IMG/VR virus record: IMGVR_UViG_3300049225_000354
Location: 1-37,201 of that record
Strand: one strand, 5' to 3'
Source of the DNA: a virus
Length of the DNA stretch: 37,201 nucleotides
Shown here piece by piece: positions 10,468 to 36,418 of this stretch; position 1 is the stretch's first letter, and the number at the start of each line of letters is the position of its first letter. The notes under the pieces are model-generated. The model was not told the DNA's origin. It ran no database searches and saw only the letters and a list, made by a program, of their open reading frames with translations. The position numbers were made by a program, and so were the translations under genes.

Positions 10468-10497
10468 CTTAAAAAATGGTTGCGTTCGATCAATCAA
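10468..10497 (-). promoter_or_regulatory. Possible promoter D (TGCTGTTGA family)
   Basis: The minus strand reads GATGTGCTGTTGATT, an 18-bp spacer and TTTAAG. The -35 region matches the family seen at 1629, 13550, 33210 and 36236, but it codes for the last residues of the PP-loop protein. The -10 also overlaps the Shine-Dalgarno sequence of the gene starting at 10459, so it may be chance. Confidence 0.25.
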
Positions 10498-11269
10498 CAG
10501 CACATCCGCATCCACCCCAATCCATAAGTTCATCAAAAGAAAGCTGGGTATTGGAGTCTATTTCCTTCTTCAACTGCAAAAGAGTCAAGTTGCTTTTTTT
10601 CCCGTTTCTCATTCTTGTTAAAATTGAAACGTCACCAAGTTGCACCCGCAGTTTTTCTTCTTCTTCCACCCACCTATTGAAAACTTCTGGTTTTGTTTTG
10701 TACAAGTGACGAAACTGAGCAACTCCAGACTTCACGCATCCTCCACCACAATTTGCGTGAGCAAACCCTAAGTCGTAAAGCTTGCATGGAGACAGGCCTT
10801 CTGACCTGCACCACTCCAGCATCTTTTCTTTCGTCATTATGGGCTTTTCACACATAGGTGCTTCAACCTGCCATGGACTGTGTCTCTCCCTCACCTTCTT
10901 GAGCCTGTGGGGTTCATTCCAGTCAAGACCGAAATAAGTAACGCAATAAGATGGATCGCAGTTGTCCTTCCTCCATTTATTCAAAAGCTTTCTTTTTAAA
11001 ATGTCGCTGCATGGATCAATTCTAGAATTACCTAAAAACTTCCTGTCTCGAAAAACTTCAAATGGAGTTCGACCATCTTCAATCTTTATAAATTTTGCAC
11101 CAATGTTTTTAGACGACGACTTTAAAAACTCATACAGAGTAGGATCTTCGATTTTTGTGTCAGCAAAAAGCAAAACCATTTCCTCGGTCCCATGTTGCTC
11201 TGCAACTCGCTTTGCTGCTGCCCAACTGCAAACGCCACCGCTATACATGACCAGATGTTTAATTTTCAT
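10490..11269 (-). CDS. PP-loop ATPase / PAPS-reductase-like protein, 259 aa
   Basis: N-terminal MYSGGVCSWAAAKR is a modified PP-loop (SGGxxS) of the adenine-nucleotide alpha-hydrolase superfamily (PAPS reductase, QueC, TilS, tRNA thiolases), followed by LLFADTKIEDPTLYEFL and GNSRIDPCSDILKRKLL. The C-terminal half has cysteines in HANCGGGCVKSG and ends with GGCGC. Phages commonly carry such proteins. The family adenylates a substrate for sulfur transfer, base modification or amide formation, but the actual substrate is unknown. AAAGGA precedes ATG. The 5' untranslated region consists of the tRNA-like structure at 11286-11388, an unusual arrangement. Confidence 0.8.
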   Translation of the reverse strand: MKIKHLVMYSGGVCSWAAAKRVAEQHGTEEMVLLFADTKIEDPTLYEFLKSSSKNIGAKFIKIEDGRTPFEVFRDRKFLGNSRIDPCSDILKRKLLNKWRKDNCDPSYCVTYFGLDWNEPHRLKKVRERHSPWQVEAPMCEKPIMTKEKMLEWCRSEGLSPCKLYDLGFAHANCGGGCVKSGVAQFRHLYKTKPEVFNRWVEEEEKLRVQLGDVSILTRMRNGKKSNLTLLQLKKEIDSNTQLSFDELMDWGGCGCAVD

Positions 11270-11285
11270 GACAATCCTTTAAAAG

Positions 11286-11388
11286 CAACTGCTTTGGGAG
11301 TCGAACCCAAGTACTCAGGGGGAAATAGAACTTCCACAGAACCAGTCCCTTTCTTTGTTTAAAGTGAGTACTGCCCACGCAAGCAGTC
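11286..11388 (-). ncRNA. tRNA-like structure 1 (no D-arm), 103 nt
   Basis: Reading the minus strand: 7-nt acceptor-like strand GACTGCT, about 10 unpaired nt, then GTACTCA, which pairs with TGAGTAC 47 nt later. Next come a perfect T-arm (TTGGG-TTCGACT-CCCAA) and AGCAGTT closing the acceptor stem with one G-U pair. The T-loop TTCGACT fits the tRNA consensus TTCRANY. There is no D-stem or correctly placed anticodon arm. The layout is that of a tmRNA tRNA-like domain, but no tag-coding segment fits. No CCA is encoded. The structure ends 17 nt before the start codon of the PP-loop gene. It is not a canonical tRNA. Confidence 0.6.
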
Positions 11389-11396
11389 AAAAAAAA

Positions 11397-11460
11397 TGGT
11401 TGCGGGGGAATCAAACCCCCGTGTTTAACAATCCCTTGAAACATTACCTTCAGTCAACCA
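11397..11460 (-). ncRNA. tRNA-like structure 2 (no D-arm), 64 nt
   Basis: Minus strand: TGGTTG pairs with the terminal CAACCA. Then come 11 unpaired nt, a hairpin (TGTTT/AAACA plus CAA/TTG, loop GGGA, TT bulge) and a T-arm CGGGGG-TTTGATT-CCCCCG. The order of parts is the same as in structure 1. Eight T follow directly, so it may also act in termination. It begins 5 nt after the stop of the DUF669-like gene. Confidence 0.6.
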
Positions 11461-11465
11461 ACCCA

Positions 11466-11921
11466 TCAAAACGGTGCTTCGTCAGAAGACACTGCCGGAT
11501 GGGAAACTGGCAGAGGTGCGTCCACAACACCACCAGCAACTCGCTTGACAACATTGCTGTCGCCATACTCTGCGTCCTTGCGGATGTCTACAGTAACAGC
11601 AACGATGCTGTTAGTCCCAGCAAGCTCAGATGGGTCCGCGATCTTGCCTTGAATGCCAACAGCATTAGCAAGACGCTTGATCCCCTCAAGCCCGATCTTC
11701 ACAACCTTCGGGTTGTTGTGAACAACCATCAGTGAATCCCAGATCTTAGAATTCGTGTGGTCGCCTTCAAGGACTTGGTAAGTCACCTTGACACGCTGAC
11801 CTCCTGCCTTGGTTTCAACCAAACTGCACTCTTCTACAATGCAGTTGTAGGTTCCCTTTGGCAGTGGACCGATTGGGCGATCCTCGACCTGAATTTGATC
11901 GAGATCAATTTGAAACGACAT
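11466..11921 (-). CDS. DUF669-like single-strand-binding/recombination partner, 151 aa
   Basis: The pattern PLPKGTYNCIVEECSLVETKAGGQRVKVTYQVLEGDHTNSKIWDSLMV is that of DUF669 phage proteins, an OB-fold-like family that replaces SSB and is encoded beside Sak4/RecA-like ATPases. The C-terminus is acidic and ends EAPF, like the DxDxPF tips of SSBs that recruit partners. It lies directly downstream of the Sak4-like gene, which supports a joint role in annealing and recombination. Confidence 0.75.
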   Translation of the reverse strand: MSFQIDLDQIQVEDRPIGPLPKGTYNCIVEECSLVETKAGGQRVKVTYQVLEGDHTNSKIWDSLMVVHNNPKVVKIGLEGIKRLANAVGIQGKIADPSELAGTNSIVAVTVDIRKDAEYGDSNVVKRVAGGVVDAPLPVSHPAVSSDEAPF

Positions 11922-11936: not shown

Positions 11937-12662
11937 TTAAGAAACATTTGTGACTGCGGAAATGTACGCTTCCGCATCCGAAAGATCAAACTTTTCGGGT
12001 AAGCTTGGAACCCTGTTTTTTGCCTGGTAGGCAGGCTTGCCCACTGTGTGGAATACGCGACGACCTTTGTCAATTCCAACATTCCTAGTGCGACCAAACG
12101 ATTCCTCTTTCTGAGAAACCGCCATCTCTGGTTCTGCAAACAGCACCTCGTCGCACCACTCTGAAACTAGTGCTCGACAATGCTTGGAAAGGTTAACGGC
12201 CATTTGATCCCAACTCATTCCATTGGGATGTTCAACTTTGACCTGTGTCGCGTGACCAATAAGCAAAACATGCTTCCCTGCATCTCTTGCCTTATCGCAT
12301 GCTTTCAGGATCGCACCCATGCGTCTGGCAGTTTCGAGATTCCCCTTGCCAAAGTCCATCTTAAAACCTTCCTCTGCAAGTTCGTTCCAGATTAGATTTT
12401 CAAGCCAGTCTACTGAGTCAATAATAATAGTCTCAAACTGACTGCTGACGCACTCCATGACCGCAGAGTAAACATCCCTAGATCCAGTCAGCCTCTGCGT
12501 TGCTGTAACGTCAACGTGGGCAAATCCGTCCTCGGTTGGAAGCAGGACTGCGTTCGGCCATTTGGCAGCAAACGTAGTCTTCCCCACTCCTTGAGCACCA
12601 TAAATTAGCGTCCTTCTTGGAACGCTTTGAATTCCAGTGGTTACGCTATCTAAAAATCCCAC
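11937..12662 (-). CDS. Sak4-like RecA-fold ATPase, 241 aa
   Basis: Walker A GAQGVGKTT at residues 22-30 and Walker B FETIIIDSVDWLE near residue 80, followed by KACDKARDAGKHVLLIGHATQ, place it in the AAA_24/Sak4 family of phage single-strand annealing recombinases. Length is normal for the family. GTG start overlapping the previous stop (TAGTG). It works with an SSB-like partner, here the DUF669-like protein encoded next. Confidence 0.85.
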   Translation of the reverse strand: MGFLDSVTTGIQSVPRRTLIYGAQGVGKTTFAAKWPNAVLLPTEDGFAHVDVTATQRLTGSRDVYSAVMECVSSQFETIIIDSVDWLENLIWNELAEEGFKMDFGKGNLETARRMGAILKACDKARDAGKHVLLIGHATQVKVEHPNGMSWDQMAVNLSKHCRALVSEWCDEVLFAEPEMAVSQKEESFGRTRNVGIDKGRRVFHTVGKPAYQAKNRVPSLPEKFDLSDAEAYISAVTNVS

Positions 12663-15559: not shown

Positions 15560-15806
15560 CAATTGCTTTATCAACCAACGCTGCGGCCCCAACCTTAAGT
15601 GCTGACCTTGGGAGCATCCTTAAAGGCGAGGGAAGCATGTTTTTCTGCTGGACAAGCCTCTGAACAATCACCAATTTGTTTGCCTTGCACCATTCGATGC
15701 CATTGTCATCCATCTTGCGTTTCCAGTTGTTGCAACCACAACCTCTGGTTTGCCTGACAACCCAGTCTGGTATTAGCTTCCCTAGTTCTGTCCCTACTCC
15801 ACTCAT
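15516..15806 (-). CDS. Conserved small phage protein with CGCxxW motif, 96 aa
   Basis: Contains GTELGKLIPDW, GCGCNNWKRKMDDNGIEWCKANKLVIVQRL, a pattern seen in small phage tail-end proteins; the clustered Cys (GCGC...C) may bind metal. It starts TAATG-coupled to the 809-aa tail protein. Its 3' end overlaps the convergent methylase gene by 44 nt. Function unknown. Confidence 0.7.
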   Translation of the reverse strand: MSGVGTELGKLIPDWVVRQTRGCGCNNWKRKMDDNGIEWCKANKLVIVQRLVQQKNMLPSPLRMLPRSALKVGAAALVDKAIANAESQVSEQTDNQ

Positions 15807-18235
15807 TACGGCCCCTCCCCACTTGGCTCACCACCTGACTCACCACCTGACTCACCACCTGACTCACCGCCTGACTCACCACCTGACTCACCACCTGACT
15901 CACCGCCTGACTCACCACCTGACTCACCGCCTGACTCACCGCTTCCAGGTTCGCACTGACAGGCCACGGTCTGGATTTGCTTCTCGTCCCATTGTCCAGT
16001 TGCCGCTGCATCAGGATTGACTGGTACGATCCCTGCGCTGCCATAGTCTTGCTGACAATCACCCGCTGGACCTCCACAAAGGACACTGGGAAGGTTGACG
16101 CCTGCAAAGACATTAACGGACCAAGTCACGCTAACCTGATACGTCGAGAATGGACAAGATGCCGTACTCGGCTCAACACACATTGTTCCGCTCACGACCA
16201 AAGAGTTGGTTGGACCATCAGAGTTAAGTTGAACCGTAAAGCTAGCACAGCAACCAGTTGTGCTGCCTAACTGAAAATTGCTCATGCCACCACCCCATTG
16301 ATTGTTGTTGTCGGCTGGGTCGGGTACGTTCTGCCAAGTAAGGTTAAACCCGCTAAACTCAAACTGATCAGAGCATTCGGCGCAATCGGAGCACTCAGGA
16401 CATTCTTCACCCTCCAAGAAAACGCCACCCAACTCCGCACACTCCGACTGAGTGACTCCAGGCATTGGCCCATCATCAGTGCAGCAGCATCCACAAGGTT
16501 CGCAACACACTTCGGCTTGAATTGGTTCATCAGCGGCATAACTGCAGACATTAACAGTTGCGCGAGTGACGGAAAGAAAGTCTTCATTGCACCCTTCAGA
16601 ATCTTGCGGTCTGCTAACTGATGTTACGACTTGAAGTGGCATCAGCGGTGGGTAAATCGTGTTGTCCTGTGTAATTGCTGGACAACTTTCATTGTCACCA
16701 AGGACTCTTATGTGCTTTCTTGTTTTGTATTGAAGTCCGCAGTCGGCAACGTAAGTCATTAGCTGATCTGCTGATCCATCTTTCTTGCCGACCACTTCGT
16801 ACTTAACAGCCTTTCCGTACATTGCAGATTCGGTTGAAAACACATAGTAGTTCTGATCATTTGGGTCCCAAAAGGCAAATCCTTTAGATCCGTTTTTTAA
16901 ACAATCAATAGGCAAGCAGGGATGCGTTTGAATGTGATCGTTAATCCCCTGCGCTGGATTATCGGGGTCGTCAAAGTACGTTTCTGGATTTTCGCCTTCA
17001 AAGTTTTCCGATGAATGAAGCCAATTTCCCGTTGATTCTTGGTAAGTTGCGCAGACCCATCTGGCTATTGGGTTTTGAACGTCAACTATATGCCACTCGC
17101 CTGTCCGAGTCCCAAGTCCACTTATATACGGAACACATCGATTGTCAGCGTTTTCCAACCTAGATGGGTAAGAAACTCTTTCAATTATGGCCCAACCTTG
17201 ACGTGCAGAAAACCTGTGCGGGTTGAGTGCATTGATTCTGTATTCCGCTGCCCCACCCTCGGGGTCGGGAGTGACCTGAAGTTCTTCAGGGAAGTCCACA
17301 TAAGGCCACTCGCTGGCAAACGAACTGTCTGGGAAAACCCGCAAGCTTTTAACCTCAGTGTCGTCTTCCCCTCTCGGCATTGCATCGTAATCGTCAATGG
17401 AAACTCTCATCCGGTTTACAGACTGAGTGCATTGCTCGACCTCCCACCTTGGATAGCACTGACTGCCTGTGTTGCAATCGTTTTCGCAATCAAAGTATTC
17501 GTCTAGGATTCCGTATGTCATCACGGCATACCCAACGCTACCCCCAGCATGCAGCATTTGGTACATGTCTGGGTTCTGGCCTTGCAGGGCGGTGAAGTTA
17601 TCAGCACCAACCGCATGGGCAAAAAGTTTTCTTGGGTCATGAACAAAAATCTGTTCGTTGTACTCAAGCCCCTCGTTTCCAAACTGATCTAAGACGTATG
17701 CGATAGCGCGTCCAGTGTCATTAAAACTGGTTTTAAGCCGAAACCTAACTCGTTGCGATTGAGGTGCATCTACTACAAAAAGAACACCTCCGAATACTGC
17801 GCAAAACGAAATTGTATTTTTAGGAATTGGGCGAGGAAACGTGTTGTAGACGTAGTATTCAGCATCACCGTAGCTATTTCCATCCGCTGCCCCTGCGCCG
17901 GTCTGTATAACTTCAACATCCACAAGCTGAAAATCTTCTGGCAGTCCTTGCCTACTTCTTGGATACGGCTTGTAAATCTTGCAGCGTTCAGGCGAAACCG
18001 CCGCCTGCATCCTAACCTGATTACCATCATCAATTTCTGGAACCGCAGCGGGGATCTCCTCTGGGGAAATGAATGCATACAGTTCCATATCGGTGGCAAC
18101 CTGCCTGCCTTGATTAAACTCACCAAGACCATGCTGCAACACATCTTCGGTTGGGTAACCGGAGATCAAGTCTTTTTTTGCAAAGTCGCCGAGTTGCCTC
18201 GTAACGTCTTTGCGCGAAAATCCGTAGAGTGTCAT
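15806..18235 (-). CDS. Large tail-associated protein with SGGE repeat tail, 809 aa
   Basis: Follows the tape measure and the 372-aa tail gene, the place of distal tail or tail-tip proteins. It is beta-rich with many cysteines (VCCEPCGCCCTDDG; CPECSDCAECSDQF near residues 600-650) that could form zinc or disulfide knots. The last 45 residues are nine perfect SGGE repeats. The N-terminus (SRKDVTRQLGDFAKKDL) is helical. It resembles no family I can name. It is probably a structural tail or appendage component with a flexible acidic tail. Confidence 0.65.
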   Translation of the reverse strand: MTLYGFSRKDVTRQLGDFAKKDLISGYPTEDVLQHGLGEFNQGRQVATDMELYAFISPEEIPAAVPEIDDGNQVRMQAAVSPERCKIYKPYPRSRQGLPEDFQLVDVEVIQTGAGAADGNSYGDAEYYVYNTFPRPIPKNTISFCAVFGGVLFVVDAPQSQRVRFRLKTSFNDTGRAIAYVLDQFGNEGLEYNEQIFVHDPRKLFAHAVGADNFTALQGQNPDMYQMLHAGGSVGYAVMTYGILDEYFDCENDCNTGSQCYPRWEVEQCTQSVNRMRVSIDDYDAMPRGEDDTEVKSLRVFPDSSFASEWPYVDFPEELQVTPDPEGGAAEYRINALNPHRFSARQGWAIIERVSYPSRLENADNRCVPYISGLGTRTGEWHIVDVQNPIARWVCATYQESTGNWLHSSENFEGENPETYFDDPDNPAQGINDHIQTHPCLPIDCLKNGSKGFAFWDPNDQNYYVFSTESAMYGKAVKYEVVGKKDGSADQLMTYVADCGLQYKTRKHIRVLGDNESCPAITQDNTIYPPLMPLQVVTSVSRPQDSEGCNEDFLSVTRATVNVCSYAADEPIQAEVCCEPCGCCCTDDGPMPGVTQSECAELGGVFLEGEECPECSDCAECSDQFEFSGFNLTWQNVPDPADNNNQWGGGMSNFQLGSTTGCCASFTVQLNSDGPTNSLVVSGTMCVEPSTASCPFSTYQVSVTWSVNVFAGVNLPSVLCGGPAGDCQQDYGSAGIVPVNPDAAATGQWDEKQIQTVACQCEPGSGESGGESGGESGGESGGESGGESGGESGGESGGESGGEPSGEGP
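15826..15945. repeat. 12-bp tandem repeat encoding SGGE
   Basis: Nine consecutive copies of GACTCACC[A/G]CCT (plus strand), with partial flanking copies, encode SGGE on the minus strand. Copies differ only at A/G in position 9 and at the edge, so the array is young and likely to vary in copy number. Confidence 0.9.
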
Positions 18236-34222: not shown

Positions 34223-34531
34223 ATGGTGACAATGGAATGGAATCCATTGTTTTCTTGGACATTTGGACACAAACGTCCGAGAACGTCCGAGAAACCGAAA
34301 AATCGTCGTAAGTCGTTGGCATCAAACGACTTAGGGCAAATCTGGGTGTCCGTATTTGAAAAGCGGAAAAACACAGATGGGGCCAGTGGTCGCCCGATCT
34401 TCTCGAAATGTCATAAAATCGACCCCTGTCGATATCGACATGTCGCGATGTTACGATATGTTAGCTGCCGGTTTCACGATATCGTCAGGAACCGACCTAG
34501 AATCGATCAGAATCGACGTTCAAAATTTTAG
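34223..34531 (+). CDS. Doubtful ORF, 102 aa
   Basis: MVTMEWNPLFSWTFGHKRPRTSEKPKNRRKS..., 2 nt after the previous stop with GGTGA before ATG. The second half runs through palindromic DNA (34427-34463) and looks non-coding. Basic and unrecognised. Perhaps only the N-terminal part is meaningful. Confidence 0.3.
   Translation: MVTMEWNPLFSWTFGHKRPRTSEKPKNRRKSLASNDLGQIWVSVFEKRKNTDGASGRPIFSKCHKIDPCRYRHVAMLRYVSCRFHDIVRNRPRIDQNRRSKF
34427..34463. promoter_or_regulatory. Palindromic TCGCGA-type regulatory site
   Basis: TGTCGATATCGACA is a perfect 14-bp palindrome at 34427-34440, followed by TGTCGCGATGTTACGATATG, which matches the reverse strand of the 25-bp repeats at 36273-36334. Here the motif is on the plus strand. 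Confidence 0.5.
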
Positions 34532-36272: not shown

Positions 36273-36334
36273 ACATATCGTAATGTCGCGAGATATTACA
36301 TATCGTAATGTCGCGAGATATCACATATCGCGAT
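36273..36334. repeat. 25-bp tandem repeats with TCGCGA core
   Basis: Two near-identical copies of ACATATCGTAATGTCGCGAG-ATAT(T/C) with period 25 and a partial third. They are iteron-like. A related single copy lies upstream of promoter A (1665-1690) and another on the opposite strand at 34441-34463. Confidence 0.75.
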
Positions 36335-36377: not shown

Positions 36378-36418
36378 GCCCCTGATAAAGGGACTCTTTT
36401 CAGCCAAAATTTTTTTAC
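36378..36418. repeat. Terminator-like repeat unit, copy 2
   Basis: GCCCCTGATAAAGGG then CTCTTTTCAGCCAAAATTTTTTT; related to the hairpin at 1741-1770 and to 36594-36627. CCC-TGATAAA-GGG can form a short stem. Confidence 0.5.

Follow-up and report, generated by a model that had tools for sequence, protein, structure and literature searches.

Two reduced tRNA-like elements behind the SSB gene of an uncultured marine phage: candidate marks for message processing and a possible site of cassette exchange

What role might two tRNA-like structures without a usable anticodon play in the gap between two phage genes? The question is posed by IMG/VR record IMGVR_UViG_3300049225_000354, here called the window (37,201 nt, positions 1 to 37,201). 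The record derives from an uncultured marine tailed phage, a bacterial virus with terminase, portal, capsid, and tape-measure genes. The gap measures 196 nt and interrupts a series of minus-strand genes in the order Sak4-like, DUF669/SSB-like, gap, PP-loop, 131-aa gene, SprT-like, and helicase; because these surrounding genes run on the minus strand, the two elements, RNA1 and RNA2, are to be read on it too. Every phage sequence bearing such an element is metagenomic; RNA2 is represented once, RNA1 by two identical copies, and a more diverged phage contributes one further element. The features of the locus are as follows.

11937-12662, minus strand: Sak4-like annealing protein gene
11466..11921, minus strand: SSB-like gene (DUF669, C-terminus DEAPF), upstream of RNA1
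11397..11460, minus strand: RNA1, tRNA-like, with acceptor stem and T-arm, beginning 5 nt past the SSB stop codon (found by structural scanner, in a relative, and with a counterpart in phage G013)
11455..11460, minus strand: RNA1 acceptor 5' strand UGGUUG, pairing with 11397-11402
11397..11402, minus strand: RNA1 acceptor 3' strand CAACCA, pairing with 11455-11460 (6 bp)
11403..11421, minus strand: RNA1 T-arm CGGGGG-UUUGAUU-CCCCCG (6 bp, 7-nt loop)
11389..11396, minus strand: run of eight T after RNA1 (seven in the relative)
11287..11388, minus strand: RNA2, tRNA-like, with 71 nt from acceptor 5' strand to T-arm and a partial 7-bp central helix
11294..11310, minus strand: RNA2 T-arm UUGGG-UUCGACU-CCCAA
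11275..11280, minus strand: AAAGGA, likely ribosome-binding site of the PP-loop gene, just past RNA2 (read from the sequence)
10490..11269, minus strand: PP-loop gene (PAPS-reductase-like, phrog_424), downstream of RNA2

Several repeats were observed elsewhere in the window. About ten head-to-tail 12-nt repeats occupy 15803-15958, at the 3' end of an 809-aa ORF (15806-18235). The 25-nt sequence ACATATCGTAATGTCGCGAGATAT is present as two tandem copies near the right end (36273-36322) and as diverged copies at 1665-1689 and 34438-34462, and these repeats could be operator or iteron sites. A 32-nt terminator-like hairpin (GCCCCTGATAA...) lies near both ends of the record (1746-1777 and 36378-36409; 75% identical).

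Structure and non-randomness of the two elements

In both elements the acceptor stem and T-stem together provide 12 stacked base pairs, the same length as in tRNA, composed of 6 + 6 pairs in RNA1 and 7 + 5 pairs in RNA2, whose acceptor stem GACUGCU/AGCAGUU has a G-U pair outermost. The T-loops follow the pattern UUCRANN, RNA1 having a U at position 56. A structural scanner that looks for an acceptor stem and T-arm enclosing any middle returned RNA1 and RNA2 alone from both strands of the 37-kb window, compared with a mean of 0.12 in shuffled sequence, and relaxing the scanner added one weak match, within a coding region. With the relaxed scanner, 20,000 dinucleotide shuffles of the 196-nt gap gave 27 that contained one strong element and 0 that contained two. 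The scanner selects for pairing, so the pairing itself is unusable as a test of covariation. The overall folding energies of RNA1 and RNA2 are ordinary (z -0.6 and -1.1). An earlier note on this DNA had described two tRNA-like structures with an acceptor stem, a T-arm, and 7-nt loops, separated by eight T in untranslated space and offering no usable anticodon; both structures do exist, on the minus strand, and the lack of a usable anticodon and the untranslated location are borne out as well.

The elements share with bacterial and phage tRNA genes and their fragments the 12-bp stack, the canonical T-loop, and a same-strand position between ORFs, but RNA2 is without a D-arm, and both are without an anticodon arm or an encoded CCA; neither forms a cloverleaf of D-arm, anticodon arm, and T-arm. 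ARAGORN, which the note had proposed as a check, called no tRNA or tmRNA for either element in standard or metazoan-mitochondrial mode; Rfam searches gave no tRNA or tmRNA at the gathering score, and the tRNA model RF00005 did not match the elements even at E<=5. The D-arm was said to be missing from both. RNA2 clearly has none; the case of RNA1 is uncertain, since its central stem is nearly isoenergetic with a competing D-arm-like hairpin (-18.6 vs -19.3 kcal/mol). The long central stem that had been seen in each element is no better than chance in RNA1 (p 0.29) and is reduced in RNA2 to the partial 7-bp helix, which is marginal (p 0.024).

The earlier comparison with tmRNA fares poorly. The acceptor stem, T-arm, and short linker in place of the D-arm do resemble the tRNA-like domain of tmRNA (RF00023), but the elements show no clear long conserved central helix and no tag frame, and they score 13.1 and 11.1 bits, far below the 47-bit cut-off. 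When introns were allowed, ARAGORN read RNA2 as tRNA-Gln(CUG) with a 19-nt intron, a call rejected here because it was also made in 11% of control shuffles that kept only the acceptor stem and T-arm. We thus regard tmRNA-like or intron-split tRNA genes as largely refuted and extremely improbable.

The elements might instead be stable decoys resembling tRNA, which would sequester host factors or those tRNA-targeting defence enzymes that act on the acceptor or the T-arm. Two papers describe tRNA-cutting immunity that phage tRNAs can evade (PMC11555353, PMC12851939), but RNA1 and RNA2 offer no anticodon as bait for anticodon nucleases, they encode no CCA, and no defence-related neighbour was identified, which makes this role very unlikely.

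Counterparts in other phages

Comparison of the region and of both RNAs with the DNA of 50,697 phages yielded no meaningful match. In IMG/VR, a pattern search with the RNA1 linker and T-loop retrieved the known relative only (13 further matches were attributable to chance), and a search with the RNA2 T-arm and acceptor gave no matches; genome contigs searched with Sak4 likewise gave none. Full coverage of the region in IMG/VR is limited to one contig, 3300024346_000394, the closest relative, while a second contig, from the window's own species, ends inside RNA1.

RNA1 is identical in the closest relative, the alignment as a whole showing 84% identity, with differences at about 16% of its sites. 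It lies within a 79-nt identical run that extends exactly from the SSB stop codon to the T-run. This run is the sixth longest in the 22.7-kb alignment, about 3% of whose bases fall in runs that long. Because five longer runs exist elsewhere, it is suggestive, though not proof, of constraint on RNA1; it could also reflect a recent tract of recombination.

A 38.6-kb phage, G013, was reached through terminase relatives (TerL 61%, SSB about 35%). Its SSB stop codon is immediately followed by a third element of diverged sequence, GGCUCGUG...AAGGGG-UUCGAUU-CCCCUU-CACGGGCU, and such an element arose in 11 of 20,000 shuffles of that gap. Because a diverged relative bears one at the same place, we conclude that RNA1 and RNA2 are real. 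All three elements stack at least 12 acceptor and T-stem pairs and have the loop UU[C/U]GANU; their middles span 33 (RNA1), 71 (RNA2), and 17 nt (G013) as parsed by the scanner, and the elements align nowhere but in the arms used to select them. The central helix of the G013 element is also at chance level (p 0.55). Its position suggests that it is orthologous to RNA1, which the sequence cannot show. The acceptor stem of G013 is unlike that of RNA1 in sequence, with its pairing intact, and if the two are orthologous, this stem has changed in sequence and preserved its base pairing. A lack of compensatory changes in homologues, by which the note would have had its reading refuted, is not what G013 shows: its acceptor stem differs yet pairs, with homology assigned by position and not by alignment. 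The G013 acceptor can be extended by two more pairs, and its minimum-energy fold disrupts the T-arm. Between the element and a DNA methyltransferase gene stand two more hairpins (L129:2018-2125), both strong (-43.4 kcal/mol, z -5.05); a T-run closes the second. Behind the more distant DUF669/SSB genes at the other phage loci that were scanned, and in L137, no such element was found.

Transcription might also end or pause behind the SSB gene at RNA1 and its U-run, with ribosomes that finish SSB covering the acceptor 5' strand and so tuning the signal. The run of seven to eight T follows the acceptor 3' strand directly and is kept in the relative, RNA1 begins only 5 nt past the stop codon, and in L137, a more distant phage, the place directly behind SSB is taken by a clear intrinsic terminator (L137:1790-1825). 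A terminator scan nevertheless finds none here, and the strong T-arm hairpin stands 6 nt from the U-run; moreover, RNA2 is followed by four U only, and the G013 element has no U-run, its terminator-like hairpin lying further on. A terminator or attenuator is quite unlikely on this evidence.

A cassette flanked by a direct repeat

The closest relative differs from the window immediately behind RNA1, which is followed there directly by the 131-aa gene, RNA2 and the PP-loop gene both being absent from this place. The corresponding features of the window are as follows.

10485..11390, minus strand: insert of about 0.9 kb (RNA2 and PP-loop gene), absent from the closest relative
11391..11404, minus strand: direct repeat CGCAACCATTTTTT, left copy, formed by the RNA1 3' end (acceptor 3' strand and T-run)
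10471..10484, minus strand: direct repeat CGCAACCATTTTTT, right copy, just past the PP-loop gene

The 14-bp sequence CGCAACCATTTTTT flanks the insert in the window and occurs as a single copy in the relative. RNA1 and RNA2 are separate units with two histories: RNA1 goes with the SSB 3' end, to which it is assigned because it is identical in the relative that has neither RNA2 nor the PP-loop gene there, and RNA2 came with, or beside, the PP-loop gene. The note had placed both before the PP-loop gene; treating the pair as a leader of that gene is not supported. The junction fits integration at a tRNA 3' end, recombination at short homology, or deletion between repeats in the relative equally well. 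Insertion is the more economical direction, because G013 and L137 also have no PP-loop gene at this place.

The arrangement raises the possibility that tRNA-like 3' ends are chiefly entry points for cassettes, as tRNA 3' ends are for genomic islands, any function of the RNA being secondary. As at such islands, a short direct repeat from the RNA 3' end borders the cassette, here at both ends and in one copy in the empty site, and the same-species contig breaks off inside RNA1. The insert, however, is only 0.9 kb with one gene, and a tyrosine integrase (PF00589) is absent from the window, the closest relative, and G013, records that may be fragments. Short-homology annealing by the Sak4-like recombinase of the phage, or deletion between the repeats in the relative, would explain the junction equally, and a dedicated attachment site appears improbable.

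The idea that RNA2 is a general leader of PP-loop genes was rejected: among homologues from 8 phages and 42 genome contigs, a single one has anything like it upstream. In a Flavobacteriales MAG contig (L249, CALACF010000506.1), an abnormal tRNA (43.8 bits), its anticodon loop 6 nt long, stands about 44 nt upstream of a related PP-loop gene, and a second, weaker one (27.1 bits, below the cut-off), with mismatches in the D-, anticodon, and T-stems, follows the preceding gene. These abnormal tRNAs, at 873-943 and 1382-1457, both begin 2 nt past a stop codon. With about 50 homologues examined, the tRNA beside the PP-loop gene may be a coincidence. The PP-loop gene of this contig has an in-frame interruption, apparently an intein. 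Against solved structures, the PP-loop protein of the window gave a single sequence match, a chain named PptA (21fy_C, E 4e-7).

A possible role in message processing

Processing signals for RNase P or RNase Z were among the options listed in the earlier note, and this is the option that we favour, tentatively and as possible rather than probable: RNA1 and RNA2 may derive from phage tRNA genes and have been retained as marks that RNase P and RNase Z use to punctuate the transcript after SSB, with a second use of the 3' end in recombination. Both elements would have lost the decoding parts (D-arm and anticodon arm) of the ancestral tRNAs, retained the acceptor stem and T-arm, and come to serve as processing marks inside a polycistronic transcript. 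The RNase P cleavage site would be the 5' edge of RNA1, a few nucleotides behind the SSB stop codon, and trimming by RNase Z or exonucleases would take place at the U-run or within it. The SSB message would thereby be separated from what lies downstream, with defined, structured ends as the result. RNA2 would act likewise ahead of the PP-loop gene, which would have entered as a cassette at the RNA1 3' end.

Gene 32 of phage T4 encodes the T4 SSB. An acceptor stem with a T-arm is the minimal substrate of bacterial RNase P, which cleaves model hairpins of just these parts (acceptor stem, T-stem, T-loop) at the canonical site; its non-tRNA substrates include phage M3 RNA, the C4 antisense RNA of phages, intergenic RNAs of E. 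coli operons, and T4 gene 32 mRNA (PMC11143913). The elements described here have the structure of such a substrate, an acceptor/T-stem hairpin with a 5' leader. They are like the M3, C4 (P1/P7), gene 32, and intergenic RNAs in being acceptor/T-stem-like and of phage or intergenic location, although those substrates are established biochemically and RNA1 and RNA2 are known from sequence alone. The match with gene 32, likewise an SSB gene, is an attractive parallel and not evidence of homology.

Processing is favoured because the parts kept are exactly those that bacterial RNase P needs, while the middle varies freely, and because the place behind the SSB stop codon is kept between SSB proteins only about 35% identical. 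The location of RNA1 in the 79-nt identical run and the abnormal tRNA directly upstream of the Flavobacteriales PP-loop gene point the same way. Weighing against it are the lack of an encoded CCA, the ordinary folding energies, the possibility that the identical run is a recombination tract, the distant SSB genes without an element, and the extended acceptor stem and disrupted T-arm of G013, where the two extra pairs may hamper RNase P.

The main rival holds that the elements are decaying phage tRNA genes without function, of which the acceptor stem and T-arm are the last recognizable parts. tRNA genes between ORFs are common in phages, and the two abnormal tRNAs of the Flavobacteriales contig look like intermediate states. 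Neutral loss should, however, break acceptor and T-stem pairing at the same pace as everything else, and the pairing is intact in three elements (found by a scanner that selected for it); RNA1 is moreover unchanged between relatives that differ at about one site in six (~16%). Decay is on balance unlikely, if a serious competitor to processing.

That there is a whole family of phage RNAs behind SSB genes, reduced to the acceptor/T-arm half of a tRNA and used as mRNA punctuation, with 3' ends that are docking sites for the exchange of tRNA-like-plus-gene cassettes, is a doubtful extension of the processing reading. If RNA1 and RNA2 are processed, they would be natural minimal RNase P substrates that act as message separators in a phage, echoing the tRNA punctuation of mitochondria and tying SSB mRNA to RNase P in a way that is open to direct test. 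From the cassette junction it seems that gene exchange among phages is shaped by such elements too.
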